Shown piece by piece: positions 14,787 through 28,079 of a stretch of 34,947 nt of DNA. The stretch's first letter is position 1. Each line of letters opens with the position of its first letter. A program made the translations under genes and the position numbers. Source of the DNA: a virus. The notes under the pieces were generated by a model. It worked only from the letters and a program-made list of their open reading frames with translations, was not told the DNA's origin and did no database searches. Location of the stretch: positions 1-34,947 of IMG/VR virus record IMGVR_UViG_3300032069_000033; one strand, given 5' to 3'.

Positions 14787-14839
14787 CAAAAAAAAGCCCC
14801 GATTCCTGATCGACTTTCGATCGATCAGGGATCGGGGCT
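14787..14839 (-). terminator. Rho-independent terminator before the left late arm
   Basis: On the minus strand AGCCCCGAT pairs with ATCGGGGCT and CCTGATCGA with TCGATCAGG, giving a long near-perfect hairpin (14795-14839) followed by a T-tract of nine. It lies downstream of the control operon and upstream of the endolysin start, so it either ends the former or attenuates the latter. Confidence 0.85.
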
Positions 14840-14858
14840 CCTTGTTATCGGATGACCC
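14834..14858 (-). promoter_or_regulatory. Conserved late leader element, left copy
   Basis: On the minus strand 25 nt, GGGTCATCCGATAACAAG then GAGCCCC, match the element at 27996-28020 at 23 of 25 positions. In both places the last bases form the 5' arm of a terminator immediately before the first late gene. A TATGCA lies 17 bases upstream, at nearly the same distance as the -10 box of the right copy, but no good -35 is seen because a REP-like repeat occupies that place. Confidence 0.7.
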
Positions 14859-14884
14859 GTCTTCCTTCCCTCTCCTGCATACGT

Positions 14885-14918
14885 CCCTCCCCCTCTACGG
14901 GGAGGTTAGGAGGGGGTT
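14885..14918. repeat. REP-like stem-loop repeat, copy E
   Basis: CTCCCC and GGGGAG arms around a short loop are followed by GTTAGGAGGGGGTT, as in copy F. It lies between the HTH gene and the left late leader. Confidence 0.75.
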
Positions 14919-14934
14919 ACATACCGTTGTTAAT

Positions 14935-15126
14935 CTACCTAGTCTTTTTGACTTTGTCAAGTCCCGCCGCCTGGATGCGCGCAATGGCGCCGTCAGGCAG
15001 TTTCCGTTTGCCGCGTGCTTCAAGCCGAGCGACATGCACCCGGTCGGAATAATTGAGCAGCTCGGCCAACTCGTCCTGAGTTTTACCCAGGCGGTCGCGG
15101 AGTTTGCGGAGATCGTTACCAGTCAT
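14935..15126 (-). CDS. XRE-family helix-turn-helix protein, 63 aa
   Basis: Small DNA-binding protein: NDLRKLRDRLGKTQDELAEL, then a recognition region LNYSDRVHVARLEARGKRKL, a compact Xre/Cro-type fold. AAGGAG lies 6 bases before the ATG at 15126, which overlaps the stop of the upstream gene. It is the last gene of the control operon and is followed by the terminator. It could be a second regulator (Cro-like) of the left promoter. Confidence 0.8.
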   Translation of the reverse strand: MTGNDLRKLRDRLGKTQDELAELLNYSDRVHVARLEARGKRKLPDGAIARIQAAGLDKVKKTR

Positions 15127-15575
15127 GGTCGCTCCTTAATCTTATCAGATATTGTTGCCAAGCTCTCAGTGACATGCGCCGGCATATTAACTATCGATCC
15201 AAGGCGGCCGAAAAATCCATCTGCGCCATATACTGTCCCACGGACCTTGTGATAGTCCTTCAGGGATTTGAGACCATTGCGCAATTTGACGGGTTTGTCC
15301 GTACGCGTGTCGATGATGCAGTCGGCATAGTATACGCCATCCGACCAGAGGATCCCCACTGCCAAGCCATCAGGCTGCCTGCATATCAACCAGCCATCTT
15401 GATAGCCGTAGATCACCATGCTCATCTGATTGTCGCCTTGCACCCAGAGTGCCCTGCCAGCTCTCGGCCGCTCGACCTCGATGGACCAGATCGGCTGACC
15501 GTAGCTTGATCGTGGATGATCGGTGGTGTGATGGGCAAGGATCGTCTTGCCTCGTGAGATCGTGATTGGTGTCAT
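15123..15575 (-). CDS. Unknown protein, 150 aa
   Basis: No family is recognised. The sequence is beta-rich, with repeated aromatic and Gly turns (VIYGYQDGWLICRQPDGLAV, GILWSDGVYYADCIID). It ends with a helical stretch, PAHVTESLATISDKIKERP. GGAGGA lies before the ATG at 15575. It overlaps the HTH gene by four bases and follows the 252-residue gene by 15 bases, so all three are one transcription unit. Confidence 0.6.
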   Translation of the reverse strand: MTPITISRGKTILAHHTTDHPRSSYGQPIWSIEVERPRAGRALWVQGDNQMSMVIYGYQDGWLICRQPDGLAVGILWSDGVYYADCIIDTRTDKPVKLRNGLKSLKDYHKVRGTVYGADGFFGRLGSIVNMPAHVTESLATISDKIKERP

Positions 15576-15590
15576 GGTCGTCCTCCTCCG

Positions 15591-16349
15591 TTAGTCGTTG
15601 ATACCATAATTGGACTCATCGCTCGCCTCGCGGGCCTCTCGCACAACAATGGCTCCCGTCCTCTTGGGTTGATAATTACCGCAATCTCCATAGCACCATG
15701 TCTGACAGCTATAGCAGTACCCGGCACCCATATCGCGGTCGTAGTATTCCTCTGCTTCTTTTTTCCGGCGTGGTTCGTCGGCCTTCCGCGCCCGCGCATT
15801 ATGGATCGCCGTCAAGATCTGCTCATCAGATTGCCTGGGATCGTCGACATCATGGCCTGTGGCCAAGAGATGCCTGCACTCCGCCAAGATCTCCACATCT
15901 GGTCTGCGCCCATCGCCGCTCCATTCCACCGGACTGTAATCACCCCAGCCCCGAGATGAGAGATACACGCTGATCGTATTAGTCTCAAGCTCCTTGCATT
16001 GTCGCTGCTCTTCGGCTTTGCGCGCCTCGATCTCCGTCTTGCGAGATTGATGATCGTCAATCGCGGCCTCCAAGGCGCTGCGTATCGGTACTGGTATTGC
16101 AAGTTGGCGCGCCAGCTTAGCCACCCGACGACCGCCCGACAGATCGACGTTGAGTGCACAGTATTGATTGATCTTGGAGCCCTGTTTGCGGAGATCCTCC
16201 AGCGTCTGGTTATCGGTCACCGCATCCTGGATGTCTATGACATTACACCAGGGCAAACGGACACTCGGTCGCCCAGTACGCGCGAAGACTATCTCATCAT
16301 CATCGACCAGGACCTCACGTTGCGTGTCCTTGTAGATTGTGCGTATCAT
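15591..16349 (-). CDS. Unknown protein with C-terminal Cys cluster, 252 aa
   Basis: The start is ATG 16349 (MIRTIYKDTQREVLVDDDEI), with AAGGAGG 6 bases upstream; the frame is open further upstream but without a good site. The N-terminal part is a short beta domain, the middle is a charged helix (SRKTEIEARKAEEQRQCKEL), and the C-terminus has CYSCQTWCYGDC, a likely metal-binding knuckle. It is the first gene of the leftward control operon. The function is unknown; a nucleic-acid binding or host-modulating role would fit the Cys cluster but is only a guess. Confidence 0.65.
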   Translation of the reverse strand: MIRTIYKDTQREVLVDDDEIVFARTGRPSVRLPWCNVIDIQDAVTDNQTLEDLRKQGSKINQYCALNVDLSGGRRVAKLARQLAIPVPIRSALEAAIDDHQSRKTEIEARKAEEQRQCKELETNTISVYLSSRGWGDYSPVEWSGDGRRPDVEILAECRHLLATGHDVDDPRQSDEQILTAIHNARARKADEPRRKKEAEEYYDRDMGAGYCYSCQTWCYGDCGNYQPKRTGAIVVREAREASDESNYGIND

Positions 16350-16402
16350 TGTGAGCCTCCTTACTCTGTCTGCGATTGAGTCTCTCTCAATCGTCTGTAT
16401 AC

Positions 16403-16431
16403 AACGTAACATAATGATACGTCAAAGTCAA
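16403..16431 (-). promoter_or_regulatory. Leftward promoter of the control operon
   Basis: On the minus strand TTGACT (16431-16426), a 17-base spacer and TACGTT (16408-16403) lie about 55 bases before the ATG at 16349. An overlapping alternative is TTGACG (16425-16420) with GTATAC. ATGATACG occurs inside the spacer on the plus strand and recurs nearby. Confidence 0.55.
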
Positions 16432-16741
16432 GGGAAATCGGCATACGTATGTCAATTTCTGTCGTTTTGCTAGAAATAACAACCCTCTAGGATGCGATAT
16501 AGGAGCGTAACATTTTGTTGCGAGGGGATCGATCTAGAGAAATAACCCCCAAAATCCGCTCATTTTCGAGGGTAGCAAAATGATACGGGCGCAATTCGCA
16601 CGATTTCGCAGGATGGCGAGGGGTGGTGATCATCCCGTCCCCCGAGAACATCCCGTCTAGCGCATCCTGGCGCCATTCAGAGGGGCTCAGAAACTGGGGA
16701 AATGCCCGCGACGTCGGGTATTAGTATGAGGGGATGGACTG
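16432..16741. other. Noncoding 310-bp control region
   Basis: No convincing reading frame. It contains a second ATGATACG at 16579-16586, a direct repeat CATCCCGTC (two copies, 16631-16639 and 16649-16657), and AT-rich tracts with AAATAACAACCC and AAATAACCCCC. In Mu the corresponding region between repressor and early genes holds operators and a transpositional enhancer. These repeats are candidates for such sites, but nothing proves it. Confidence 0.4.
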
Positions 16742-16909
16742 TCAGCCCCAGAGCGAACTGGGCAGGTCCCGGCCGCACTTCGAACATACCTTGGGCTTGC
16801 TACCCAGTGGAATGCGCGATTCACAATGCGGACACTTTTTTTGAAGCAACATCAAAATCGGAGCGATGACGATCGCTATGATTATTCCAACAATGAGTCC
16901 TTCAGCCAT
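16742..16909 (-). CDS. Small membrane-anchored zinc-ribbon protein, 55 aa
   Basis: The product starts MAEGLIVGIIIAIVIAPILM (one transmembrane helix). It continues with KKCPHCESRIPLGSKPKVCS and KCGRDLPSSLWG, a CxxC...CxxC zinc ribbon. Its ATG (16909) overlaps the end of the repressor gene by 8 bases, with GAGGAAGAG upstream, so it is coupled to the repressor and probably expressed in the lysogen. That expression and the membrane anchor suggest a lysogenic conversion or exclusion function, which is inference. Confidence 0.7.
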   Translation of the reverse strand: MAEGLIVGIIIAIVIAPILMLLQKKCPHCESRIPLGSKPKVCSKCGRDLPSSLWG

Positions 16910-17363
16910 TTCTCTTCCTCCCTTTCTTTTGTGCGTTGTACTTCGCAGGCTCTTCCGCTGCTTTCAATACGTTCATCACATTGGGCGTCCGTTCCATATC
17001 CAAGGCGATCGCCAGGTCCGTCGTGTTCGTGATGCCCAGTCCATGCAGCACCGTAAGCATCGCGCGATCCTCTCTTGTGATCGCTTCTTTCGCCCGACGC
17101 TCGATCATCTCCTCAAACTGATGATTGATCTCCTCCTGACGCTCACCGGTCATGAGCCATACGACATCACATCCTAGCTTCCTCAGGCGTTCTTCCATCT
17201 TATTGCCTGGCAGCCATCTCCCGCTTAAATAATCATTGAGTTGCTGGGGGCTGATAGTCAAGGCTTTCGCGAACTCGGTTTTCCAGCCTCGTGCCGATCC
17301 AAAGAGTTGCTGCCCAAAAAGCGCTAAACGCTCCGAAATTCCTGTTTTGGTTGCCAACATCAT
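16902..17363 (-). CDS. CI-like phage repressor, 153 aa
   Basis: The N-terminal DNA-binding domain covers about residues 20-72: GWKTEFAKALTISPQQLNDY, LSGRWLPGNKMEERLRKLGC, then DVVWLMTGE, the typical end of an Xre domain in phage CI proteins. The C-terminal half is charged and helical (EEINHQFEEMIERRAKEAIT) and has no S24 peptidase residues, so self-cleavage is not expected. The gene diverges from the early promoter. Two near-identical 15-bp sites flank that promoter and are probable operators. The start is one of two adjacent ATG codons at 17363/17360; no good ribosome site is seen. Confidence 0.8.
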   Translation of the reverse strand: MMLATKTGISERLALFGQQLFGSARGWKTEFAKALTISPQQLNDYLSGRWLPGNKMEERLRKLGCDVVWLMTGERQEEINHQFEEMIERRAKEAITREDRAMLTVLHGLGITNTTDLAIALDMERTPNVMNVLKAAEEPAKYNAQKKGRKRNG

Positions 17364-17366
17364 TTT

Positions 17367-17416
17367 ACGTGGATTCGCCTAGAAAATTAACTTGACAAAC
17401 GACGTGGAATCACCTA
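17367..17416. promoter_or_regulatory. Paired 15-bp direct repeats, probable operators
   Basis: ACGTGGATTCGCCTA (17367-17381) and ACGTGGAATCACCTA (17402-17416) differ at two positions and are 35 bp apart. The second covers the spacer of the early promoter and overlaps its -10 box; the first lies just before the repressor ATG. This is the arrangement expected for repressor (or Ner) binding that silences the early promoter and tunes the repressor gene. Confidence 0.7.
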
Positions 17417-17420
17417 TATT
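17392..17420 (+). promoter_or_regulatory. Early promoter (sigma70 type)
   Basis: TTGACA (17392-17397), a 17-base spacer and TATATT (17415-17420) make a near-consensus promoter 52 bases before the first early gene. It is overlapped by the proximal operator. Confidence 0.85.
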
Positions 17421-17471
17421 GCGCCATCTAGTTACCGCCTTAATCCATCATCAAATTAACAGGCTGAAGAT

Positions 17472-17684
17472 ATGCAAGAAGAGGCCCGGAATCAACTCGA
17501 CGGAGAATTCATCCGGTACAAGGCCCGCCGCAACGGATGGCGCAAAGTAAAGCAGATCGCCAGGCGCGTCAATCGCAGCAGCGCCGCCGTCTCCCGCGCG
17601 TTTAGTGGCGAGCTCCCAAAGCTCCTCGCCAGGATTGACAAGCTCGTGAGCAAACCGAAGAACTCAAAAAAGGCCGCGGCATGA
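17472..17684 (+). CDS. Ner-like small DNA-binding protein, 70 aa
   Basis: It is the first gene of the rightward early operon, the place of Mu ner, which turns down early transcription. It is very basic, with an HTH-like core (WRKVKQIARRVNRSSAAVSR) followed by AFSGELPKLLARIDKLVSK. Ner itself is about 75 residues. The fold cannot be confirmed by eye, but size, charge and place agree. It overlaps the next gene by four bases. Confidence 0.65.
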   Translation: MQEEARNQLDGEFIRYKARRNGWRKVKQIARRVNRSSAAVSRAFSGELPKLLARIDKLVSKPKNSKKAAA

Positions 17685-18367
17685 AACGAAAACCTGAGAA
17701 TTGCTGTCGCTCTTGCCGAACATCGTTGCCGATCTACGAGTTTAAAACGCTCCGCGGCAAGATCATCCACGTCTGCGGGCGCTGCCGGAACGATCTCCTT
17801 GAGATGGGAATATTCATCAAGGAAGTCCTTGAAAAGGAGAAGTTCGTCGGGCCGCCTCGCGTCATCGTCATGCCGCCAAGCAGTGCTGTCCGTTTCTTTC
17901 GGATTCCCTTCGTGCCCGACACCCCGTTGCCACCGCTCGACCGTAACGCTCTCATCCGCTCCAATCTCGTTGAACCTGAACTCCTGAAGAGATTCCCTGA
18001 ATCCGCTTTTGGTAAACCAGACATCGCGGCGCTGCACAAATTTGCGATGAGACGCGTGATGAAGAGCGATGGCATCAGCGGATTCTCCATCGCCAAGGAG
18101 ACGCGCGTGCTTCCACAGTATGCGGTGGACCGCTTTCTCGAGTTGCAAATCACGGATCCAAAGAGCCCTGAGTTTCATGGGTTCATGCGGTGGATTATTG
18201 ATCATGGTTACACGCTGAATCAGATCGTTCAACGCTCTGATCTCAAAAGACTGTTTACGACGCCCTCCGATGGCAGTCCAACCGCAGAATTAGGGAAATT
18301 CCCTACTACTGATTTCATTGAACCAAAGTCACCCGAAAACCCTTACCCGACCAATGACACGGTTTGA
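17681..18367 (+). CDS. Unknown early protein with N-terminal zinc knuckle, 228 aa
   Basis: The N-terminus has two Cys pairs, CCRSC (8-12) and CGRC (32-35), separated by about 20 residues, as in small treble-clef or ribbon modules. The middle is Pro/hydrophobic-rich, and the C-terminal 100 residues contain helical stretches (SIAKETRVLPQYAVDRFLEL, HGYTLNQIVQRSDLKRLF) that could form an HTH. The ATG overlaps the preceding stop (ATGA). A role in early regulation is inferred from position only. Confidence 0.6.
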   Translation: MKRKPENCCRSCRTSLPIYEFKTLRGKIIHVCGRCRNDLLEMGIFIKEVLEKEKFVGPPRVIVMPPSSAVRFFRIPFVPDTPLPPLDRNALIRSNLVEPELLKRFPESAFGKPDIAALHKFAMRRVMKSDGISGFSIAKETRVLPQYAVDRFLELQITDPKSPEFHGFMRWIIDHGYTLNQIVQRSDLKRLFTTPSDGSPTAELGKFPTTDFIEPKSPENPYPTNDTV

Positions 18368-18743
18368 GCGACTTCAGGCTTATCGACGGACACTCAAAGA
18401 GCGCGGGATCACGCTCTATCACCTCTCACAGATCCTTCGAATCGGCTACGATCGTGTCTATCACTATTTCAATGCCCGTTTCTCGAAAATCTCCAAGCGG
18501 GACCGCAAACTGATTTATCATTGGCTCGTCGACCAGGGCATTATCATTGTCAAGCGCCGTCCTCGCTGTTCCTGCCCGCATTGCGGCAGAGTACATGTCG
18601 AGGCGATCCCGTTCCGCTGCACCACAAAATCCCCTCTTCTTCTAGGAGAGGGTGAGGGTGAGGTTCGATCCCAATCTACGCAACCGCGCGACGGAGCGCA
18701 ATCAGAATCGCTCGACAGGAATCCCGCAAGAATTCCGCAATAA
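18354..18743 (+). CDS. HTH / zinc-motif early protein, 129 aa
   Basis: The ATG at 18354 (MTRFERLQAYRRTLKERGIT) overlaps the stop of the preceding gene by 14 bases. Residues 8-65 form an HTH-like unit (LYHLSQILRIGYDRVYHYFN) followed by CSCPHC, a possible zinc site. From about residue 92 the sequence is read through a REP-like repeat (KSPLLLGEGEGEVR) and low-complexity residues, so the tail is probably a repeat-derived extension rather than a folded domain. Confidence 0.55.
   Translation: MTRFERLQAYRRTLKERGITLYHLSQILRIGYDRVYHYFNARFSKISKRDRKLIYHWLVDQGIIIVKRRPRCSCPHCGRVHVEAIPFRCTTKSPLLLGEGEGEVRSQSTQPRDGAQSESLDRNPARIPQ
18629..18666. repeat. REP-like stem-loop repeat, copy D (inside coding sequence)
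   Basis: CCCCTCTTCTTCTAGGAGAG followed by GGTGAGGGTGAGGTTC. It extends the C-terminus of the 129-residue gene with a Gly/Glu tail. Confidence 0.75.
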
Positions 18744-18761
18744 GAAAACAGAGAGATCCCA

Positions 18762-19004
18762 ATGGCCACCACCGTGTTCACGACCGAAGAAAAGCAAATC
18801 CTCGCCAACAAAATCTTTGAGCTGACCGACAAGCTCAACGTCGCGATCCAGCAGGCGCACGCGGCCGGCCTCACCATCAATCTCATCGCGATCCCGAGCA
18901 TCGCGTCTATCTCTCCGATCATCAAGGCTTTCGTCAATGAGATCGTCCCGTTCGCCGATCCGAAAGAACAATCTCAAGTCAGAACTCTGGACTCTGAACT
19001 TTGA
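18762..19004 (+). CDS. Unknown small early protein, 80 aa
   Basis: Helical N-terminal half (TTEEKQILANKIFELTDKLN) and a hydrophobic centre (AAGLTINLIAIPSIASISPI). It has no known motif. The last ten or so residues (QSQVRTLDSEL) are encoded by the heptad repeat tract at 18976-19017, so the natural end may have been shifted by repeat growth. It lies between the HTH/zinc gene and the CII-like gene. Confidence 0.5.
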   Translation: MATTVFTTEEKQILANKIFELTDKLNVAIQQAHAAGLTINLIAIPSIASISPIIKAFVNEIVPFADPKEQSQVRTLDSEL

Positions 19005-19017
19005 ACTCGGAACTTCC
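18976..19017. repeat. Heptanucleotide tandem repeat tract 3 (6 units)
   Basis: Six units in exact phase: AAGTCAG, AACTCTG, GACTCTG, AACTTTG, AACTCGG and AACTTCC. The tract covers the 3' end of the 80-residue gene and stops exactly at the ATG of the CII-like gene (19018). Confidence 0.8.
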
Positions 19018-19353
19018 ATGCTTGATTACCATCTGATCTTATACGCCACGATCAAAGACTTCGAGCTGAAGGAGCGCATCCGCCGCGTGGATCTCACCTT
19101 CAACGGCTTCCCGCATCTCGCCGCGTGCATCGGGCACAAGAACGAAAGCACGCTCAGAAAGATGTGCGAGCCGCGCGCGAGCAGCAACGGCGCAAAACTC
19201 GGATTCGAGGACGCACTCGTGATCATGGCCGAGACCGAAGACTATCGTCTACTGTACTACCTGAAGGAGGAGCTCAAGCGTCGCCAACAATCCAACCAGC
19301 AGCAGCTCGGCCTTTTCTGCGAGCCGCTGCGCACACTCGAGGACCTCCCATGA
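19018..19353 (+). CDS. CII-like phage regulatory protein, 111 aa
   Basis: The start at ATG 19018 gives MLDYHLILYATIKDFELKER. Residues 20-90 resemble the phage CII / CP76 regulatory family: a 'nGF..LA..iGhk..tLr.k.....' segment (FNGFPHLAACIGHKNESTLR) and a 'lgfedal.Im..T.D...l..L..EL' segment (LGFEDALVIMAETEDYRLLY). Such proteins bind DNA and shift lysis/lysogeny choice. It is placed directly before the transposase and overlaps it by four bases (ATGA). Confidence 0.65.
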   Translation: MLDYHLILYATIKDFELKERIRRVDLTFNGFPHLAACIGHKNESTLRKMCEPRASSNGAKLGFEDALVIMAETEDYRLLYYLKEELKRRQQSNQQQLGLFCEPLRTLEDLP

Positions 19354-21290
19354 CCGAAGAAGTCGCAACCGTCAACCAGGATTCGCAAGTGATAACGTCT
19401 CACGTCTCACTTCTCCCGTCTCACGTCGACATGCCAAGCGTGCCCCACGATCGCATCACCCCGGAGATCCTCCGGAGGGTCGATGCTTTTTGGGGGTCCT
19501 TCTCGGCTGTCAACATTTCGGATGCCGAACGACGGATCGATGAGGAATTTTCGATCTCAGCCGGCCAACAGCGCCGATACAAAGCAGAGCTTCGAAAGCT
19601 TTTCAACCTTGCTTCAAGATCGCCTCTTTCTCTACTCGCAGGGCATCCTCAGATCAAACAAGCCATCGAATTCGTCCTGGTCCGGGACGAGCGAGCGGAC
19701 AAGAACACGCTGCGCAGCGCAAAGCGCCTGTCGGTCATCGTGCCGGCAACAGGAGAACAGATCTCCGTCGAGGAGTTCTTGAAGTCCCTCTATCCTCGAG
19801 AGGGAGTGAACGCCGCGAGCTGCTATCGGGCACTCAGGGCCTTGTGCCTGAAGAAACGAGTCCTCCTCGAACCTTCCGAAGGTTCTCCGCGCCCGTCTTC
19901 GGGCCCTTCGGAAGGTTCCCGCGCGGCAACACTCCAGGACCTTCCCAGCGAGGCGAGCGTGATTCGTTTCCTGCGCAACTGGCGCCAGGAATTCGTCGCC
20001 GTCCGGCGGGGAAGAAGCCGGCACCATGACTGGGAAGCGCAACAGGAGCCCTACGTCACGCGGGATGTCAACGAGTATCGCCCCGGCGAGCTCTGGATCG
20101 GCGATCACACCGAGCTCGACTTCATGGTCCTCAACGAGCGCGGGCAGCTCGACCGGCGCTGGATCTCTGCATTCATCGACATCCGTACCGGGCTGATGAT
20201 AGGTTATCACCTATCGTGGCAGCCGAATTCTCAAACGATCGCGCTTGCGTACCGCAACGGTGTCCTCGGCTCGCAACTCAAGGCATTCACCGGTGAGAAA
20301 TTCGAGGCGGTCCAACTCACCAACGTGCCGGAGATCGTGATGATCGACAATGGCAAGGATTACCGCTCGAAGTATACGAAGCGTGTCTTCGGCAAGATCG
20401 ACTTCGACGATGCCGCCCGTCTCAGCGTGCAACGTCTCACCAGATTGCATTACGTGCTTCGTTACCACGGCCAGTCGAAAGCCCAGATGGAGCGATGGTT
20501 CGGCGTCTACGAAACGATGATCAAATATCTCCCCGGCTATAAGGCGAACGAGTACCGGAACAAACCTGACTCGCTCGCCGAGGACCTCAAGGCCGGTAGG
20601 ATTCTTTCCGTTGCTCAATTCGACGCGATCACCGCCGTCGCCATCAACAGCTACAACAACCGAGTTCGCAAGTCCCTCAAGGACCAGTCGCCTTTGCAGT
20701 GCTATCTCACCAACCAGACTCAGCAGCGTTCGATCGATCTGCGCGTGCTGGATTTTCTGCTGATGAAGGTCCAGGGCCGCCGCATCCGCCGCTGCCAGGT
20801 CACGCTCCTCGGCAAAGAATATTACAGCGACGCGCTCATGGCAGCCAACGATCGAGTCGCCGATGTCTATTACGATCCCCAGGACCTCGGCTTCGTCTCC
20901 ATTTACGTTGACGGCAAGTTCGCGGCGGTCGCTTCGAACAAAGAGATGATCGGTCGCGATGAACGCGGATGGCTGAAGATTCTGCACGAGCGTAAGCACG
21001 CAGAAAAGCAGATGCAGACCGAACTCAAAGAGTACAAGAAGGGCATTACGAACATCGAGGCGAGGATGATGCTGCTCGAGGGGGAGCTGCTGAATGTGAC
21101 GCCGGTCTCGAATGAGCTGCTGCGGGGAAAGGCACCCACCGTAACATTTTTGACCGGCGTCGAGCAGCAGGCAAAGGAGAATCAACGAGAGCTCGAATCG
21201 GAAAAACAAGCCGTCGAGACCCGGAGGAAAGCGAAAGAACGAAATAGGCGTCAGCCGCTCACGCTCGCAATGGTTGATCGCATTAGATAA
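19350..21290 (+). CDS. Mu-type DDE transposase, 646 aa
   Basis: It catalyses integration and replicative transposition of the phage genome. The catalytic triad is visible: D252 in WIGDHTELD, D333 in EIVMIDNGKDYRSK and E381 in SKAQMERWFGVYE. C-terminal parts are a beta-barrel-like region (CQVTLLGKEYYSDALMAAND) and a basic helical end (RRKAKERNRRQPLTLAMVDR) that probably contacts MuB. MuA has 663 residues, so length is normal. ATG 19350 overlaps the CII-like stop. Two oddities: a heptad repeat tract codes for residues 16-27, and a 50-bp cruciform codes for a Ser/Gly/Pro linker near residue 180, just before the catalytic half. Confidence 0.93.
   Translation: MTEEVATVNQDSQVITSHVSLLPSHVDMPSVPHDRITPEILRRVDAFWGSFSAVNISDAERRIDEEFSISAGQQRRYKAELRKLFNLASRSPLSLLAGHPQIKQAIEFVLVRDERADKNTLRSAKRLSVIVPATGEQISVEEFLKSLYPREGVNAASCYRALRALCLKKRVLLEPSEGSPRPSSGPSEGSRAATLQDLPSEASVIRFLRNWRQEFVAVRRGRSRHHDWEAQQEPYVTRDVNEYRPGELWIGDHTELDFMVLNERGQLDRRWISAFIDIRTGLMIGYHLSWQPNSQTIALAYRNGVLGSQLKAFTGEKFEAVQLTNVPEIVMIDNGKDYRSKYTKRVFGKIDFDDAARLSVQRLTRLHYVLRYHGQSKAQMERWFGVYETMIKYLPGYKANEYRNKPDSLAEDLKAGRILSVAQFDAITAVAINSYNNRVRKSLKDQSPLQCYLTNQTQQRSIDLRVLDFLLMKVQGRRIRRCQVTLLGKEYYSDALMAANDRVADVYYDPQDLGFVSIYVDGKFAAVASNKEMIGRDERGWLKILHERKHAEKQMQTELKEYKKGITNIEARMMLLEGELLNVTPVSNELLRGKAPTVTFLTGVEQQAKENQRELESEKQAVETRRKAKERNRRQPLTLAMVDRIR
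19395..19429. repeat. Heptanucleotide tandem repeat tract 4 (5 units, in transposase)
   Basis: ACGTCTC ACGTCTC, then ACTTCTC, CCGTCTC and ACGTCGA in exact phase. It is translated as part of the unstructured N-terminus of the transposase (TSHVSLLPSHV). Confidence 0.8.
19869..19918. repeat. Palindromic element inside the transposase gene
   Basis: GAACCTTCCGAAGG (19869-19882) and its exact complement (19905-19918) flank a smaller hairpin GCCCG-TCTT-CGGGC. Each arm is itself nearly palindromic. The element codes for a low-complexity linker (EPSEGSPRPSSGPSEGS). Confidence 0.8.
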
Positions 21291-21310
21291 CCCCAGGATT
21301 CATCCTGGGG
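21291..21310. repeat. Perfect 8-bp hairpin between transposase and ATPase genes
   Basis: CCCCAGGA-TTCA-TCCTGGGG starts directly after the transposase stop and lies just before the ribosome site of the MuB-like gene. It has no T-tract. It could set the ratio of the two proteins or protect mRNA. Confidence 0.7.
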
Positions 21311-21324
21311 AGAAGGAGATCGCA

Positions 21325-22272
21325 ATGCAAACAACAAGCAAGCTCGCGCTCATCGAACAAGCCCAATTCACGACGGACAAGCCCGAGGAGATCCGAACCC
21401 GCCTGAAAAGCCTGATGGAATCCGGAGAGATTACGCTCCGGGCAATCGGCAGATTCACCGGATACAGTTCGCCGACGATCAGCCAGGCGTTGGACGGGAC
21501 GTACACAGGGGACGTCGAGAAATTGGAAGATGCTCTCGCTCGGTTCTACCGAAATTGGCTCGCGAGCAATCTGATCGTCGAGACGAGCGTCGTGAAGGAG
21601 ATCTATGCGACGATGATGTTGGCCTGGAAGCGCAAAGAGATGGCACAGATAACCGGGCGCTACGGCGTGGGCAAGTCGAAGGCGACGTCCCGGTTCGTCG
21701 CTCTCAATGGAGACTTCGCCGCGTATGTAGAGCTCACGTCAACGACCTCGCCGACGTCGCTCCTGCACCGGATTGCGGAAGCATTGAACGTCGAATCACA
21801 GATGGTCGGCAGCCAGGACGACAAGCTCTTCGCCATTATCCGCGCACTCCAGCGAAAGCCCAGGCTGCTGGTGATCGACGAAGCCGACAACCTGAAAGCC
21901 CGGACCCTGGCAATTCTGAAAGACGTGCACGGAGGCGAGGCATCGGAGCGTTGCGCCGTCATCCTGGTCGGAACCGAACGGCTCAAGAAGCTTCTCCAGG
22001 ACCCGATCCTAGGCTATCTGCGCCGGCGCATTCGGATCAAGCGTGAGGTACGCGACATCGGTTTCGAGGAGGCACGAAAGATTGCCGACTTCTGGCCGCA
22101 CAAGCTCGACAAAGACGAGCTGAGGGAAGCCTGGAACTGGTCGCTAAAACATTTCGGTGTTGCAAGCCTGGTTGCCCTGATGGCCCGAGCGTACGACGAG
22201 ATGCAGATCAACGAGAAGAAAAGGATTGACAGTGAATGCCTCGAAGGAGCGTACGGATGGCTCGTGGACTAA
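21325..22272 (+). CDS. MuB-like transposition target-capture ATPase, 315 aa
   Basis: AAA+ ATPase that coats target DNA and delivers it to the transposase. The N-terminus holds an HTH (ITLRAIGRFTGYSSPTISQA, about residues 32-52), as in MuB. Walker A is GRYGVGKS (111-118) and Walker B LLVIDEAD (D185, E186). The sensor region contains VILVGTERLKK, and LRRRIRIKREV follows. MuB has 312 residues, an excellent match. AAGGAG lies 6 bases before the ATG at 21325. It is separated from the transposase by 34 bases that hold a hairpin. Confidence 0.9.
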   Translation: MQTTSKLALIEQAQFTTDKPEEIRTRLKSLMESGEITLRAIGRFTGYSSPTISQALDGTYTGDVEKLEDALARFYRNWLASNLIVETSVVKEIYATMMLAWKRKEMAQITGRYGVGKSKATSRFVALNGDFAAYVELTSTTSPTSLLHRIAEALNVESQMVGSQDDKLFAIIRALQRKPRLLVIDEADNLKARTLAILKDVHGGEASERCAVILVGTERLKKLLQDPILGYLRRRIRIKREVRDIGFEEARKIADFWPHKLDKDELREAWNWSLKHFGVASLVALMARAYDEMQINEKKRIDSECLEGAYGWLVD

Positions 22273-22346: not shown

Positions 22347-22703
22347 ATGAGTGAGAAGCGATTTCACATCAGCAAGGATGGCAAGGTGCTGACGGATCGA
22401 AAGAACAACACCACGATAAGCGTCGCGAAGTTCCGGATTGATCAGATGCATCGTACGCCCTCCGTTCTTTTCAACGAGGGGGTCGAAGGGAAGAAACAGC
22501 TCAAGATCGCACGGTGGACAATCGACGAAAGTGAATTCAATTTTGGCGCGGTCGAGCCGCCGACAGCTGGTCGTGAGAGAATGGCGCGCAGTGATGACAA
22601 AGCCTTTTTCACGAAAGACGAATTGATCTCGGTCCACCTAGCCCTGCAGACGGCCGCTGACATCACGCTCAAGAAATTGGTCGGGCTCATCCGTTCTGAG
22701 TGA
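22347..22703 (+). CDS. Unknown early protein, 118 aa
   Basis: It starts MSEKRFHISKDGKVLTDRKN after AAGGAGG. The N-terminal half is beta-like and basic, the C-terminal half helical (FFTKDELISVHLALQTAADI). It is placed between the ATPase and GemA genes, where Mu-like phages carry small semi-essential early proteins. No family is recognised. It overlaps the next gene by four bases (GTGA). Confidence 0.6.
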   Translation: MSEKRFHISKDGKVLTDRKNNTTISVAKFRIDQMHRTPSVLFNEGVEGKKQLKIARWTIDESEFNFGAVEPPTAGRERMARSDDKAFFTKDELISVHLALQTAADITLKKLVGLIRSE

Positions 22704-23281
22704 CCGTGACTCGCAACAAGTTCATACAGCGGATCCACGTCCTGAAGCGGGATCTCGGTCTCGACGACGAGACCTACCGCACGGTCCTCGACTCCGTTGC
22801 CGGTAAGACGAGCTGCACGAATCTCGAGGAGGAGGAACTCAACCTGGTCCTGCTGGCGCTGGAGAAGATGTCCCGAGGAGGCAACGGCGCGACTTCGGTG
22901 ACCCTTCGAAACCAGCGCCAGCAAAGATTCATCGCCCGTCTGATGGATTACCTCGGCTGGACCTGGAAGCAGACGTCGCACTTCTGTGTGCGCCAAACGG
23001 GCAAGCGGTCCACGAGGAGCTGCAACGCCGCCGAATTGAGCAAGGTGATCATCGGCATGATCAGGCTCATCGACGAGGACATTGAGAAGGGGCGTTTGAA
23101 GCTCAGCCCGGAGAAGCTCGAAGAGTACAGGCGATACACGAAGATGCAACGCGGAATGAACGACGAGCCGACTTGCAAGCACGAACGCTCAATCGATGTG
23201 CCCGGTAATTTCTGCTGGAAATGCGGACGCGAATACGATACTCCAACAGATCATCACTTAACGGAAGGAGCAACGACATGA
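22700..23281 (+). CDS. GemA/gp16-family protein (DUF1018) with C-terminal zinc motif, 193 aa
   Basis: The DUF1018 part is clear: KFIQRIHVLKRDLGLDDETY, RTVLDSVAGKTSC and, after a linker, QRFIARLMDYLGW with helical ELSKVIIGMIRLIDEDIEKG. In Mu, GemA modulates host gene expression and DNA topology. An added C-terminal module CKHERSIDVPGNFCWKCGRE is a likely zinc ribbon and is repeated as CQHRRSRGVPGRFCWKCGQE in the 67-residue protein at 26387. The start is a GTG in GTGA overlap. Confidence 0.82.
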   Translation: MTVTRNKFIQRIHVLKRDLGLDDETYRTVLDSVAGKTSCTNLEEEELNLVLLALEKMSRGGNGATSVTLRNQRQQRFIARLMDYLGWTWKQTSHFCVRQTGKRSTRSCNAAELSKVIIGMIRLIDEDIEKGRLKLSPEKLEEYRRYTKMQRGMNDEPTCKHERSIDVPGNFCWKCGREYDTPTDHHLTEGATT

Positions 23282-23631: not shown

Positions 23632-23701
23632 CCCTCGCGCAGCGACCTCCGACTGTGATGGGCCCGCCCCGGATCTGGGAGAGCCGGGGCGGGTGCGAGG
23701 G
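23632..23701. repeat. Large GC-rich two-step stem-loop
   Basis: Outer arms CCCTCGC / GCGAGGG (7 bp) and inner arms CCCGCCCCGG / CCGGGGCGGG (10 bp) are both perfect. It begins directly at the stop of the 117-residue gene. There is no T-tract; a role as an mRNA 3' barrier or in differential expression of Gam is possible. Confidence 0.8.
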
Positions 23702-23705
23702 ACCA

Positions 23706-23733
23706 ACAGTTCACAGTTCACGCTTCACCTTTT
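23706..23733. repeat. Heptanucleotide tandem repeat tract 5 (4 units)
   Basis: ACAGTTC ACAGTTC, then ACGCTTC and ACCTTTT in exact phase, between the GC-rich hairpin and the Gam gene. Confidence 0.75.
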
Positions 23734-23751
23734 CCTAACAAGGAGTCACGC

Positions 23752-24273
23752 ATGGCAAAGAAAATTCAAACGACAACGCTCAAAACCTTCGAAGAGGTCG
23801 ATCAGGCACTTCTGAACCTCGGCAAGCAAGAAGTCTTTCTGCAGAGAGAAGAGGCGAGGCTCAATCAGGAGATCCAAAAGCTCCGGGAGGCCTCGGAGAA
23901 GATGACGGAGGAAGCTCGCAAAGAGAAGCTCGCGCTCGAAACGGACATCGAGCTCTTCTGCGATGAGCATAGGGACGAGTTTGAGAAGCCCCGCACGCGC
24001 GAGCTCATGCATGGCACAGTCGGCTTCCGGACGACGCCTCCGAAGGTTGCGTTGCTCAACCGGCAGCACAATTGGGCCACTGTCCTCGAGCTGCTCAAGA
24101 GGATGAAATGGGGTGCCCGCTACCTGCGGGAGATCTTCGAGGTCGACAAGGAAAGGATCCTGGCTGATGTTGCTATGAAGGAGATCAGCGACGCGAAGCT
24201 CGCTGCGGCTGGAATGAAGATCGCGCAGAGCGATGACTTCATCTATGAAATCAAATGGGAAAGTATCCCCTGA
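23752..24273 (+). CDS. gam: Host-nuclease inhibitor Gam, 173 aa
   Basis: Mu Gam family: it binds double-strand ends like a bacterial Ku and protects phage DNA from RecBCD-type nucleases. The N-terminal half is a long coiled coil (LNQEIQKLREASEKMTEEAR). Then come RELMHGTVGFRTTPPKVAL and VLELLKRMKWGARYLRE, both typical of the family. Mu Gam has 174 residues. Recognised by length, helical pattern and GTVGFR..P motif. AAGGAG lies before the ATG. Confidence 0.88.
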   Translation: MAKKIQTTTLKTFEEVDQALLNLGKQEVFLQREEARLNQEIQKLREASEKMTEEARKEKLALETDIELFCDEHRDEFEKPRTRELMHGTVGFRTTPPKVALLNRQHNWATVLELLKRMKWGARYLREIFEVDKERILADVAMKEISDAKLAAAGMKIAQSDDFIYEIKWESIP

Positions 24274-24298
24274 GATGGAGTATCGCGTTTAGAGAACC

Positions 24299-24556
24299 AT
24301 GGACGGACGCGAGATGATCGAGCTCAATACAAAAGAACTCCGCTCCGACATCATCCGTAGGGCGGGCGCCAAGCCGATCGGCGAGCAAGGGGGAATTGTC
24401 TGGTTCGTCGATCCGGTGACGCAATCGACTCTCGTGCTGCCACCAGATGAAGTCACGCCCAGCAACGTTAAATTAAAGATCAAGCAGTCAAGGCGGGCCT
24501 TCGGGATACGGCGCTGTTGGCTTCGGCAACTTGCTAGTTGGTGGCATTGGCATTGA
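24299..24556 (+). CDS. Unknown small protein, 85 aa
   Basis: It starts MDGREMIELNTKELRSDIIR. A short beta-rich middle (GIVWFVDPVTQSTLVLPPDE) is followed by a basic end with several Trp (RRCWLRQLASWWHWH), which may be an unselected read-through tail. Start support is weak. No family is recognised. Confidence 0.45.
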   Translation: MDGREMIELNTKELRSDIIRRAGAKPIGEQGGIVWFVDPVTQSTLVLPPDEVTPSNVKLKIKQSRRAFGIRRCWLRQLASWWHWH

Positions 24557-24570
24557 GAGATCTGGTAGTC

Positions 24571-24762
24571 ATGACGGCCGCAGAGCTCGAAGCGAAAATC
24601 TACTACGCGATCCGGTTTATCGTGAAACGCCAGGCGATCCCAGACACAATCGTGATGACCGCAGCAGATGCCGCCGCACGCGAGATTAGCAAGTACCAGA
24701 AGCAAGTTGATTCCCGCACGGAGAAGGAAAATGAAATCATATCGCAAAATGACGGAAGCTGA
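24571..24762 (+). CDS. Unknown small helical protein, 63 aa
   Basis: ATG 24571 gives MTAAELEAKIYYAIRFIVKR, with a second helix AADAAAREISKYQKQVDSRT. An upstream start at 24538 is possible but lacks a better ribosome site. It overlaps the next gene by 32 bases. No function is assigned. Confidence 0.45.
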   Translation: MTAAELEAKIYYAIRFIVKRQAIPDTIVMTAADAAAREISKYQKQVDSRTEKENEIISQNDGS

Positions 24763-25351
24763 GCGAAAGGCGAGCTGCGTCGAGGTCGTCAGTTCCTTTT
24801 ATCGCAGTCACAATCGAGTGCCAACGACCTCGGATGTCAGCGCCACCTTCATCAAGCGAGTCAGGAGCCATTGGGGATCCTGGGAGAACGGAATGAAGGC
24901 CGTCCTCCAGGTGAAGCCCGGCCGGCATCAGTGGAGCGATGAAGAGATCCTGCAGGTCCTCCGGGACCTCCGGGCGAAGCTGAACCGATTTCCCAAGGCG
25001 ACGGATCTGGAGAATGTCAAGAAGTCCCTCCGGCGGCATGTGACCATGCGCTTTGGCGGGCTAAACAACGCTCTCGAAAAAGGTCTCCACGACAGTCCTC
25101 GGATCCAGATCCTCAAAGCGCTGCGCGAACTCACGCCGCCGCTGTGCGACTCCGCTTCAACGCGTGAAATCGCTGCGCTCTTACAAGAGAAGAAGACCCC
25201 GCTCTCAACACAGGAAATTGGCGTCCATTTGGACGATGCGCGCAGAGCCGGCTACGTCGACTGCAAGCGATACTCTGAGACGAGTGCCTGGTGGTTGACC
25301 GGGTTGGGGAAAGGACTTTTGGAACAATGGATGATGAAGGATTCGAAATAG
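24731..25351 (+). CDS. DNA-binding protein with two HNH-associated repeats and a winged helix, 206 aa
   Basis: ATG 24731 follows GGAGAAGG. Two units of the homing-endonuclease-associated repeat type are visible: RVPTTSDVSATFIKRVRSHW with GSWENGMKAV, and RFPKATDLENVKKSLRRHVT with FGGLNNALEKG. The C-terminal 80 residues form a winged helix (STREIAALLQEKKTPLSTQE, DDARRAGYVDCKRY). There is no catalytic HNH motif here, so it looks like a sequence reader without a nuclease. A transcription activator of late genes (the slot of Mu Mor/C) is one possibility. Confidence 0.6.
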   Translation: MKSYRKMTEAERKASCVEVVSSFYRSHNRVPTTSDVSATFIKRVRSHWGSWENGMKAVLQVKPGRHQWSDEEILQVLRDLRAKLNRFPKATDLENVKKSLRRHVTMRFGGLNNALEKGLHDSPRIQILKALRELTPPLCDSASTREIAALLQEKKTPLSTQEIGVHLDDARRAGYVDCKRYSETSAWWLTGLGKGLLEQWMMKDSK

Positions 25352-25557
25352 TGCGACATAAGCGTGACAAGGAGTGCGCACCTGGTCTGCACAGCGATGT
25401 ACCGATCATCGAAGGCGACCAAACGGTAGGATTGGTCTGCACTATTTGCGGCCGGCGAGTGCGCGAGGCCATGGAGTACAGTTATCTGGTAGTATCGCCC
25501 GAGGGACTTATCGACACGCGCGAGCGGCCGCCGAGCCGGAAGGACCCGAGATTCTGA
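25327..25557 (+). CDS. Small Cys-containing protein, 76 aa
   Basis: ATG 25327 (MDDEGFEIVRHKRDKECAPG) overlaps the end of the preceding gene. CAPGLH and CTICGRRV could ligate one zinc ion. It shares one base with the next start (TGATG). Function unknown. Confidence 0.5.
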   Translation: MDDEGFEIVRHKRDKECAPGLHSDVPIIEGDQTVGLVCTICGRRVREAMEYSYLVVSPEGLIDTRERPPSRKDPRF

Positions 25558-26057
25558 TGTCCACGATCATCGTCTATGCGAACAACTCCGTCGCGGTCGA
25601 TGGCAAACCGAGCCGAATGGCAGAGAAGGATCTCAAGCGGCTCAGAATACCTATCATCCGGATAGCGCGCACATGGGAGGAGACTGATGGAGCGGAACGC
25701 CGATGGATCGGCCGCGACGATTACATAATCTTCCCGACGTGCACGGAACTTGGGCGCGGCAAAGCAAAGATTGAGCCGCACCGGCGTGTGCGACTCATTG
25801 GCAAGGTCCTTGCGGAATGCACGAAATGCCATCGGATGAAACCACGGGGGCAGTTCCCTCGGAATCGAGCGACTGCACTGGGGATCGATTCATGGTGTAA
25901 GTCATGCCATGCTACAGCAAATCGTCAGCGCCGCAAACAATCATCCTCTCCTCATAGGAGACGGCAGGGTGAGGTTAATGGCCCGGTATCGAAGAAACCC
26001 ATATCGCATGGAAGTGATCAATCGATTCGGCCAGACTGTCAATCTGCCGCTCTTTGA
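25557..26057 (+). CDS. HNH/zinc-finger-like protein, 166 aa
   Basis: The N-terminal 80 residues are basic and beta-like (MSTIIVYANNSVAVDGKPSR). Residues about 90-120 have CTKCHRMKPRGQFPRNRATA followed by LGIDSWCKSCHATANRQRR. The pattern 'CxxC..kp...F......g....CK.C' is common to zinc fingers that precede or degenerate from HNH nucleases. No complete H-N-H follows. The last 40 residues are read through REP-like copy C and overlap the next gene by 80 bases, so the natural end is uncertain. Confidence 0.5.
   Translation: MSTIIVYANNSVAVDGKPSRMAEKDLKRLRIPIIRIARTWEETDGAERRWIGRDDYIIFPTCTELGRGKAKIEPHRRVRLIGKVLAECTKCHRMKPRGQFPRNRATALGIDSWCKSCHATANRQRRKQSSSPHRRRQGEVNGPVSKKPISHGSDQSIRPDCQSAAL
25942..25977. 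repeat. REP-like stem-loop repeat, copy C, abutting a start codon
   Basis: ATCCTCTCCTCATAGGAGAC followed by GGCAGGGTGAGGTTA; the ATG of the next gene is the next three bases. The GGTGAGG of the repeat may serve as its ribosome site. Confidence 0.75.
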
Positions 26058-26403
26058 ACAGACCTCGAGACGACTTCCAGAGCCGACTCGAAGCCGGTTT
26101 GAAGGCGCGCCGAAATCAATCGCGGTGGCGACGGACACGCGCAAACTATCGCACCTTATTCTGACGCACGACAAGCGGCAGCTCACGAACAAGCAGCTCG
26201 CAGTCCTTGGGGCAATAATCGACATCGGTCCTGCATCGAACGAAGAGATCGCTCACCACCTTGGCTGGGAAATTAACCGTGTTGTAGGGAGGACTTTCGA
26301 GTTGAGACAATATGGCATTGTGGTCCTTGCAGGCAAAAGAAAGTGCCGAAGGACGGGCATGATCGTCTCCGTTTGGCAGAAAAAAAATGATCCGCTTAAA
26401 TAA
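25978..26403 (+). CDS. Winged-helix protein, 141 aa
   Basis: ATG 25978 (MARYRRNPYRMEVINRFGQT). The C-terminal half is a winged helix: DKRQLTNKQLAVLGAIIDIG, then PASNEEIAHHLGWEINRVVG and RTFELRQYGIVVLAGKRKCR. Proteins of this kind in phage operons bind DNA; the exact target is unknown. Its only ribosome-site candidate comes from the REP-like repeat directly upstream. Confidence 0.6.
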   Translation: MARYRRNPYRMEVINRFGQTVNLPLFEQTSRRLPEPTRSRFEGAPKSIAVATDTRKLSHLILTHDKRQLTNKQLAVLGAIIDIGPASNEEIAHHLGWEINRVVGRTFELRQYGIVVLAGKRKCRRTGMIVSVWQKKNDPLK

Positions 26404-26590
26404 GGATCTTGTGAAAGCGGCTTTTGGTGCTGGATTCAGCGTCGGGCAACCGTCTGGCAAAATGTCTCTGCGTGAATGGCTCGCGAAGTGGACGAGCAAG
26501 AAGCTGAACATCGCCGATCGAAATTGTCAGCATCGTCGCTCGCGTGGAGTGCCCGGGAGGTTCTGCTGGAAATGTGGGCAGGAGTTTTGA
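26387..26590 (+). CDS. Small zinc-ribbon protein, 67 aa
   Basis: MIRLNKDLVKAAFGAGFSVG is followed by a basic helix and CQHRRSRGVPGRFCWKCGQE. The latter is the same C-x-H...VPGxFCWKCGxE module as the C-terminus of the GemA-like protein at 22700. It overlaps the winged-helix gene by 17 bases. Likely a stand-alone version of that module. Confidence 0.6.
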   Translation: MIRLNKDLVKAAFGAGFSVGQPSGKMSLREWLAKWTSKKLNIADRNCQHRRSRGVPGRFCWKCGQEF

Positions 26591-26605
26591 ATTGCGGAGC
26601 TGGCA

Positions 26606-27259
26606 ATGACTCAAACTACACAAATCGAGCTTTTCCCATTGGTGAATATCTCGCGCGGAGTCTTCAGGGGATTCCTCGGAGATCTCCTGCGCGACGTCAA
26701 CCAGGGTCTCTTCGATGATTCGGAACGAGATTATGAGTTCTATCCGGTCAAAACACGAGTCCTGCGCAAGTATGGAAAGTTCGACGGTTATGACATCCAG
26801 AGGATACACGACCTTTGCTGGAGTTGTGACGGGACCGGCCGATGGCACTACTGGTATGACGACGGCGGAGATTGGTGCTGGAAGTGCAACGGGACCGGCA
26901 CGTATCGCCTTGCCTGGCATCTTCTGGAACGATGGCGCCTGGGAGAGCATGTCTTTCACCATCCGGTATGGGAAGTGGCCCGGCTCGGCCGAGTGGCGCA
27001 CTTCATCAAAGGCCGCATCGAAAGCAAGCATCCGGACCACATATTCGCGCACAGGGGGCTCCTGGTCCTCCTGGCTCTCTTTGATCTCAAAGGATGCCGG
27101 CGTGTCATCAAGAGGCGCATCCGGTTGCGAGCTCATTCACATCTGAATGCACTGATGTGCAGTGACCCGGTTATCAGGTTAGACAACTTACTGATCGATC
27201 TCAATGATTGGCTCAAGCGTCTCGGTCTCATAAGCGACATGACCGTGTACAAGGATTGA
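26606..27259 (+). CDS. DnaJ-type zinc-motif protein, 217 aa
   Basis: Two CxxCxGxG motifs (CWSCDGTGRW and CWKCNGTGTY, about residues 71-99) form one DnaJ-like zinc centre. There is no J domain, so it is not a DnaJ chaperone. The rest is basic and helical (FHHPVWEVARLGRVAHFIKG). It overlaps neither neighbour. The role is unknown; the zinc centre could bind partner proteins or nucleic acid. Confidence 0.55.
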   Translation: MTQTTQIELFPLVNISRGVFRGFLGDLLRDVNQGLFDDSERDYEFYPVKTRVLRKYGKFDGYDIQRIHDLCWSCDGTGRWHYWYDDGGDWCWKCNGTGTYRLAWHLLERWRLGEHVFHHPVWEVARLGRVAHFIKGRIESKHPDHIFAHRGLLVLLALFDLKGCRRVIKRRIRLRAHSHLNALMCSDPVIRLDNLLIDLNDWLKRLGLISDMTVYKD

Positions 27260-27282
27260 ATTACTATGAGAGGCAAACAACA

Positions 27283-27696
27283 ATGATCACTCTCCTTCTC
27301 GTCCTTTTCACCGCCGTCCTGTATGGAATGATCGAGGCGGTGGTGTACGATCACGGGTTTCAACCGCCGGACGACAAGAAACTCTTCGGCTGGTTCTCGC
27401 CGTCCTATCATATCCCGGCAGCGACGCTTTGGTTCCTGATTTGTTGCCTGGGCGGCCAACCGGAATTATTCTTCACATATTGCTTCGTCGAGGACCTCAG
27501 CTATTTTGTTTTCAGTCCCAAGGACAGTCTCGACGACGAGGATTGGGTGAATTGGAAGCTCGGCGGCTTCTATCTGAGCGATCTGGTGCCGGGGCTGTTT
27601 CCAAGTCTGGCCGGCTTTCCGAACACGAAAGCGGGCTATATGCCATGGACGTACGTCATCCTCAATGCGCTCACGATCATTCTTTATCTCATCTGA
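27283..27696 (+). CDS. Predicted membrane protein, 137 aa
   Basis: ATG 27283 (MITLLLVLFTAVLYGMIEAV). Hydrophobic segments lie near residues 2-20, 45-60 (PAATLWFLICCLGG) and at the C-terminus (YVILNALTIILYLI), with an acidic loop KDSLDDEDWVNWK. It has the look of a small multi-helix inner-membrane protein. Its family is unknown, as is its role; it is a late member of the early operon. Confidence 0.55.
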   Translation: MITLLLVLFTAVLYGMIEAVVYDHGFQPPDDKKLFGWFSPSYHIPAATLWFLICCLGGQPELFFTYCFVEDLSYFVFSPKDSLDDEDWVNWKLGGFYLSDLVPGLFPSLAGFPNTKAGYMPWTYVILNALTIILYLI

Positions 27697-27699
27697 CAA

Positions 27700-27903
27700 A
27701 TGCCAGCCGTTGAGACGTTGATCGAACTGCTGAGGAAGATCTCGAAGAGCACGGACCACGTCCGGGTCGAGGTGGACTATGATGGACGAGAGTTCCACTG
27801 GAAGCTCCCACAGAAGGATCTCACGGCGAGCGAGTGGACCCCAAAGGATAACAAACTTGAGAAGAAGTTCCCGGCTAGAGGCAGCCCGGAGGGTTGCGGC
27901 TAA
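27700..27903 (+). CDS. Unknown small charged protein, 67 aa
   Basis: It starts MPAVETLIELLRKISKSTDH. One helix then a short beta hairpin (HVRVEVDYDGREFHWKLP) and a polar tail. It begins 4 bases after the membrane protein and is the last gene before the late promoter. Being small, charged and placed just upstream of the late leader, it is one candidate for an antiterminator, but nothing in the sequence proves this. Confidence 0.5.
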   Translation: MPAVETLIELLRKISKSTDHVRVEVDYDGREFHWKLPQKDLTASEWTPKDNKLEKKFPARGSPEGCG

Positions 27904-27914
27904 CTCGCGGAATG

Positions 27915-27930
27915 ACGCAACTGGTTGCGT
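27915..27930. promoter_or_regulatory. Palindrome upstream of the right late promoter
   Basis: ACGCAA-CTGG-TTGCGT, a 6-bp dyad 21 bases before the -35 box; possible activator or repressor site. Confidence 0.4.
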
Positions 27931-27951
27931 TATCCCAATGGGTAGCACGGT

Positions 27952-27980
27952 TTGATTCGAGCGGCGGAAATTGTTACATT
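27952..27980 (+). promoter_or_regulatory. Probable promoter of the right late arm
   Basis: TTGATT (27952-27957), a 17-base spacer and TACATT (27975-27980) lie between the early operon and the leader-terminator module. Transcription would start just before the conserved leader. Confidence 0.55.
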
Positions 27981-27995
27981 GTGAGTGAAGTAATA

Positions 27996-28020
27996 GGGTA
28001 ATCCGATAATAAGGAGCCCC
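27996..28020 (+). promoter_or_regulatory. Conserved late leader element, right copy
   Basis: 25 nt beginning GGGTAATCCGATAATAAG and ending GAGCCCC, identical at 23 of 25 positions to the minus-strand element at 14834-14858. In both copies the final AGCCCC is the 5' base of a terminator stem. Confidence 0.72.
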
Positions 28021-28079
28021 GGTTTGGTGATGGACAAACAAGAATCTTTGTCCCACCAGATTGGGGCTTTTTCTTTTTT
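28015..28079 (+). terminator. Rho-independent terminator before the terminase genes
   Basis: AGCCCC (28015-28020) pairs with GGGGCT (28063-28068), TGGTG with CACCA, and GGACAAA (28032-28038) with TTTGTCC (28047-28053). A T-rich tract follows to 28079. It stands between the promoter and the first late gene, as in attenuated or antiterminated late operons. Confidence 0.85.

Follow-up and report, generated by a model that had tools for sequence, protein, structure and literature searches.

Twin leaders at the divergent late operons of an uncultured Mu-like phage family are probably an undescribed class of RNA antiterminator

The stretch of DNA analyzed here (the window) is one IMG/VR record, IMGVR_UViG_3300032069_000033, with a length of 34,947 nucleotides (nt), and represents a Mu-like transposable phage in which two nearly identical leaders stand at the heads of the two divergent late arms. 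The middle of the window encodes, all rightward, a MuA-like transposase (19125-21290), a MuB-like ATPase (21274-22272), GemA (22700-23281) and Gam (23752-24273), with repressor-like genes running leftward at 14.9-17.4 kilobases (kb). The left late arm is transcribed leftward, begins with an endolysin (glucosaminidase) gene on the minus strand (14109-14765; Pfam PF01832, E 9e-25; PHROG endolysin), and includes a Mu-I-like protease and the major head protein. The right late arm is transcribed rightward and begins with a DUF1804/terminase-small-subunit-like gene on the plus strand (28119-28589; Pfam PF08822, E 2e-14; PHROGs), followed by the large terminase. No close isolate phage was found in the GenBank phage set, the nearest GenBank matches being about 25% identity to Pseudomonas phages for the large terminase and 28% to Mu for MuB. 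A MuB search of genome contigs returned a single distant Treponema match (26%), from which no host can be assigned.

The two leaders, on the minus strand at 14858-14834 (GGGTCATCCGATAACAAGGAGCCCC) and on the plus strand at 27996-28020 (GGGTAATCCGATAATAAGGAGCCCC), agree at 23 of 25 positions, as the first-pass annotation had reported, and the runner-up match to either 25-mer in the whole window reaches 17 of 25. When the leader is extended by one base (GGGTNATCCGATAAYAAGGAGCCCCG), the 26-mer occurs with up to three mismatches at these two window sites only, with an expectation of 0 in 100 shuffles, and the sequence flanking the two leaders is otherwise unrelated. The same annotation had placed a strong rho-independent terminator directly after each leader, with the leader end as its first arm, and had put both leaders immediately before the first late genes. 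These points hold: the left terminator (14787..14841, minus strand) and the right one (28013..28081, plus strand) each fold at about -36 kcal/mol (z scores of -6.2 and -7.5 against shuffles) and continue into T-runs, and the Pfam and PHROG assignments given above support the identity of the genes behind them. Only about 22 nt separate the left terminator from the start of the endolysin gene, and about 38 nt separate the right one from that of the terminase-small-subunit-like gene. A further promoter would not fit into either gap, so that transcription would have to read through the terminators to reach the late genes.

Going beyond that annotation, we found that the leader itself can form a hairpin of 24 nt (loop GAUMAYAA, a nearly free stem of three base pairs, bulge NA, stem NGRU/GYCN) which uses the 5′ arm of the terminator. 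In all elements the 7-nt 3′ strand of the hairpin forms the first nucleotides of the terminator 5′ arm, and the two structures therefore cannot coexist. The consensus was derived from an alignment of 16 distinct elements. Its outer stem, P1, has four pairs (N-G-R-U with G-Y-C-N), among which the U.G wobble beside the bulge is invariant, as is the A of the 2-nt 5′ bulge (N-A). The inner stem, P2, has three pairs with almost free sequence, occurring as UCC/GGA, CGC/GCG, GGC/GCC, ACC/GGU, UCG/CGA, UUC/GAA, GUC/GAC, GAC/GUC and CCC/GGG. The loop is 8 nt long, mainly GAUAAYAA or GAUCAYAA, and the types seen across phages include GAUAACAA, GAUCAUAA and AACUA; loops are shorter in G005, N586, N117 (right) and G008, where the overall design is retained. 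In the window, the left-arm hairpin (14835..14858, minus strand; covariance model match of 40.4 bits) pairs 14858-14855 with 14838-14835 in P1 and 14852-14850 with 14841-14839 in P2, with the bulge at 14854-14853 and the loop at 14849-14842 (GAUAACAA). The right-arm hairpin (27996..28019, plus strand; 39.0 bits) pairs 27996-27999 with 28016-28019 in P1 and 28002-28004 with 28013-28015 in P2, with the bulge at 28000-28001 and the loop at 28005-28012 (GAUAAUAA). Both are supported by covariation and by their own folds.

Two-sided changes were found in five of the seven pairs, and 97.3% of the alignment cells pair. The covariation score of 0.498 compares with 0.113 ± 0.032 in shuffled alignments, none of 500 reaching it, and slid registers score at most 0.158. 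Without L051, a doubtful element (see below), and without two elements that only a pairing descriptor had recovered, five pairs were still supported and again none of 500 shuffles reached the score. RNAalifold yields the same hairpin unaided, and elements folded singly also give it, three of them without the outermost pair. In a scan of the collection with P2 left free, all hits followed by a terminator had three of three P2 pairs, including the newly met relative L180, while hits without a terminator mostly lacked full P2 pairing. The first-pass annotation had left undecided whether the signal is RNA or DNA; because the changes are compensatory, it appears to act as RNA, in a structure incompatible with the terminator.

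Other readings of the leader letters were rejected. The GATAAT inside the leader was considered as a -10 element, but relatives read GATCAT, GATCAA or GACAAC there and proper promoters lie upstream. A DNA palindrome (TNAT-CCG-ATNA) is likewise disfavored, with relatives losing the symmetry and keeping the hairpin pairing, and a ribosome or Shine-Dalgarno role of AAGGAG is at odds with the free variation of GGA together with its partner (GCG, GCC, GAA, GAC, GGT, CGA).

Sigma-70-like promoters upstream of the leaders are a further addition to the first-pass annotation. The left-arm promoter (14932..14960, minus strand), located by consensus scan and promoter scoring, consists of TTGACA (14960-14955) and TAGATT (14937-14932) separated by 17 nt, and lies 73 nt upstream of the hairpin. 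The right-arm promoter (27952..27980, plus strand), identified by promoter scoring, has TTGATT (27952-27957) and TACATT (27975-27980), also separated by 17 nt, and lies 15 nt upstream. Most leaders are preceded by such a hexamer pair with 17-nt spacing; 13 of 23 sites reach a promoter score that 3.9% of random positions attain. Across leaders, the distance from the -10 hexamer to the hairpin ranges from 15 to 101 nt, and this variability favors an element read as RNA over a promoter-bound DNA site such as that of Q. As a separate observation, several of the leader promoters of L036/L037, L068, L072 and L044 read TTG...TAnATTTG. This resembles the Bacteroidota-type -7 element, TAnnTTTG, and is a possible hint at the host.

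With MuA, MuB, I-like protease, terminase and leader sequences as queries, we gathered about a dozen related contigs, members of a family seen only in metagenomes. All eight contigs that include both arms (the window, G005-G009, which are the contigs of L012-L016, N60, which is L068/L148, and N117, which is L072/L149) have leader plus terminator on both, and no relative was found to lack it at an arm that its contig includes: one-arm contigs carry the leader as well (G001 on the left; G004/N98, N584 (L146), N586 (L070) and L180 on the right). The left leader is about 0.6 kb from the endolysin in G007, N60 and N117, where an apparent HNH/AP2-type reading frame separates the two (see below), and 4.3 kb away in G008. 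A search for the element in 1.34 megabases of other phage loci, mostly Mu-like, gave a single hit, with an E-value of 3.6.

Some additional features of the leaders were noticed in this collection. In three relatives an apparent HNH/AP2-like reading frame of the homing-endonuclease type, judged by eye, lies between the left leader and the endolysin (minus strand; L040 about 11324-11860, L068 about 4233-4800, L072 about 4784-5350). Tandem leader copies are present in some relatives (L042:19846-19975, plus; L034:1368-1445, plus; L035 about 8620-8474, minus), where a full terminator follows only the last copy, each of the others being succeeded by a plain hairpin that lacks a T-run. A matching leader and terminator also occur in the contig of an unrelated phage, where genes for head morphogenesis lie on one side and scaffold/capsid genes on the other (L051:1880-1940, plus). 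This may be a remote instance of the element, or chance; the pattern behind it gives chance hits, and we do not rely on it.

The loops of the two arms agree within a phage, with a summed edit distance of 6 against 21.1 expected over eight phages (P = 0.0003), and of 5 against 9.0 (P = 0.017) when two phages with 5-nt loops are left out. The P1 and P2 stems, in contrast, do not agree between arms (11 against 12.1 over seven phages, P = 0.31), and gene conversion of the whole element is disfavored because the stems would then agree too. The simplest reading of these sequence patterns would be one partner per phage that recognizes loop and bulge and differs between phages, although kinship among the few phages limits the weight of the comparison.

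The proteins GemA, 24668-25351, 25909-26403 and 27700-27903 are present in all relatives that cover the early region. We tentatively rank the 67-amino-acid family encoded just upstream of the right-arm promoter (27700..27903, plus strand), which is found in 13 of 13 family records covering the region, as the first candidate for this partner by its position and its restriction to this phage family, a possible rather than a probable factor. The protein has no match in Pfam, NCBIfam or the GenBank phages; its predicted fold has low confidence (predicted local distance difference test score of 64), with no meaningful PDB match. An alternative candidate is the 164-amino-acid, very basic protein at 25909..26403 (plus strand; isoelectric point of 11.1), which is also conserved in relatives covering the region and for which structure prediction gives an ordinary C-terminal winged helix. 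The protein at 24668-25351 is a basic, HNH-repeat protein. Loop distance shows no significant correlation with protein distance for these families, the best being the 27700 family (rho = 0.21, P = 0.17).

We propose that each late-arm leader is transcribed and can hold either of two exclusive RNA structures, the antiterminator hairpin or the strong intrinsic terminator. Polymerase would start at the leader promoter or arrive from an upstream operon, and by default would halt at the terminator, leaving the late genes off. Once a phage factor, most likely an early RNA-binding protein, was made, it would hold the antiterminator in place by binding its GAUMAYAA loop and bulged A, so that the terminator would be blocked from forming and transcription would enter the late genes. 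With the same loop at both arms, one factor could open both. The sequences themselves show the elements, their conservation, the compensatory pairing, the terminator overlap and the loop common to both arms of a phage; that a protein binds, which factor it is and when it acts, and that polymerase reads through are the parts of this model that we infer. The coordinated antitermination by one phage factor suggested by the first-pass annotation thus gains support, at the level of sequence, from the relatives, the covariation and the loop identity within phages, and we consider it quite probable that the leaders form an undescribed class of RNA antiterminator driving a two-arm late switch.

Known antiterminators provide a close functional parallel. 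Like the element described here, the RNA target of BglG, LicT and SacY, the CAT-RAT system, is a small, asymmetrically bulged hairpin that excludes a terminator; it is held by a protein (PMC3369936), as proposed for the phage element, and its characteristic overlap of the antiterminator hairpin with the terminator 5′ arm is present in the phage leaders. RAT, however, has two asymmetric internal loops where the phage element has one 2-nt bulge and a conserved 8-nt loop, and it serves sugar operons rather than phage late operons; the CAT domain (PF03123) was found in none of the 14 records of the phage family covered by our domain searches, which did detect it in the controls. In ANTAR systems (NasR, AmiR, EutV) the antiterminator stem likewise takes part of the terminator 5′ strand (PMC3369936), but two tandem hairpins with A1/G4 loops are used instead of one GAUMAYAA-loop hairpin per site. 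The ANTAR domain (PF03861) is absent from all 14 records, a weak negative since no control genome passed the cut-off. A weak hairpin that excludes the terminator and has to be stabilized is also the principle of CAT/RAT and ANTAR antitermination (PMC3369936); the phage element would work like a RAT or ANTAR antiterminator, and on the tested features it belongs to neither. Lambdoid Q with pR′-tR′ shares the arrangement of promoter, short leader and terminator before the late genes, antitermination, and a small gene just upstream. Q binds a promoter DNA site and changes RNA polymerase (PMC6606751), whereas the conserved signal here is an RNA hairpin at variable distance that is used twice. Q homologues (PF06530, PF03589) were found in 0 of 14 records, although Q families are diverse and distant ones could escape. 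Mu C, from the same phage group, also opens several late operons by one factor (PMC4461284), but it activates initiation, while the promoters here are near the sigma-70 consensus, and none of the 14 records has a Mor/C-type activator (PF08765). HK022 put, Tn916 canT and pLS20 conAn are mobile-element RNAs that keep transcription from terminating (PMC11658703, PMC9378689). Of these, put and canT work in cis, and canT carries transcription past several terminators, unlike the phage hairpin, which competes directly with one adjacent terminator. The window has no Rfam match at gathering score, with chance-level matches only at E up to 5.

Several observations weigh against our interpretation. The sample consists only of about a dozen related contigs, the outermost P1 position is unpaired in three elements, G008 has just two P2 pairs, G009 L1 and G007 R have imperfect T-runs, and G009 has no clear promoter on the right or left. 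Although it is transcribed first, the hairpin by itself has little stability (-3 to -9 kcal/mol) compared with the terminator (-27 to -49 kcal/mol); it thus needs stabilizing to win, and no partner has been singled out among the conserved early proteins. Stabilization of the hairpin might instead come from a protein or some other signal of the host, or the competition might be purely kinetic, with no phage factor involved. The lack of a singled-out factor fits this view, and host-read antiterminators are among those known, but the loop varies between phages and yet agrees within a phage, as expected for a phage-encoded partner, and a lysogen would leak late genes whenever the host signal was present. 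We regard this explanation as unlikely.

Less probable again, to the point of being very doubtful, is that the leader is a DNA site through which a regulator allows polymerase to pass or start (a Q-type site, an activator site or a -10) and the RNA hairpin incidental. The GATAAT of the right leader in the window does resemble a -10, the TNAT-CCG-ATNA core comes close to symmetry, and Q itself acts from a DNA site in a promoter that a terminator closely follows (PMC6606751). The P2 bases, however, vary freely but as complementary pairs, the -10-like letters become GATCAA or GACAAC in relatives, and the promoter spacing of 15 to 101 nt is hard to reconcile with such a site. The two window promoters have 17-nt spacers, the place of a Q site between -35 and -10, that resemble each other only at chance level, and no Q or Mor homologue was found in the family records. 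The leaders could also be two short, terminated, trans-acting small RNAs whose late-arm location is incidental, since promoter, short RNA and terminator would give a small RNA at each site. This is the most improbable of the alternatives: the terminator fold would dominate the finished RNA and leave the pairing of leader and 5′ arm unselected, yet that pairing covaries, only 22-38 nt lie between the window terminators and the late genes that follow, and the element is consistently located at the two arms.

Taking the antitermination reading further, we lean, with less confidence, toward a new RNA antiterminator class working with a new phage-encoded RNA-binding factor, perhaps the 67-amino-acid protein, as the late switch of these uncultured transposable phages, releasing both divergent operons and taking the place of Mu C and Q, with loop and factor co-evolving. 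Phages are known to switch on late genes either by activating promoters (Mu C) or through factors that alter RNA polymerase (Q), and an RNA switch of the RAT kind used twice per genome would differ from both. No description of the hairpin or of such late-gene control was found in the open-access literature searched, most subscription papers lying outside the search. If the proposal is true, the leaders would offer a compact antitermination part together with, probably, a new family of RNA-binding proteins.

Several relatives also contain another conserved, structured RNA, which is about 150 nt long, has compensatory pairs and no Rfam match, and was not found in the window. It has a closing stem of GUUCAA..GGCGUGAAC, the motif CGGGCAACCYUCCCG, and a 3′ end, GGGUUGCCCGUUUU, complementary to an internal stretch. 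On the plus strand it occurs at L070:16349-16510, L146:5553-5714, L068:17543-17698 and twice in L072 (15282-15443 and 13533-13696), and on the minus strand at L035:9409-9261, L038:8075-7920 and L042:7279-7145. Its position is towards the end of the early region, in many cases immediately ahead of the gene of the 67-amino-acid protein or of the right-arm element. A promoter-like sequence usually precedes it, and it may be part of the same regulatory circuit.

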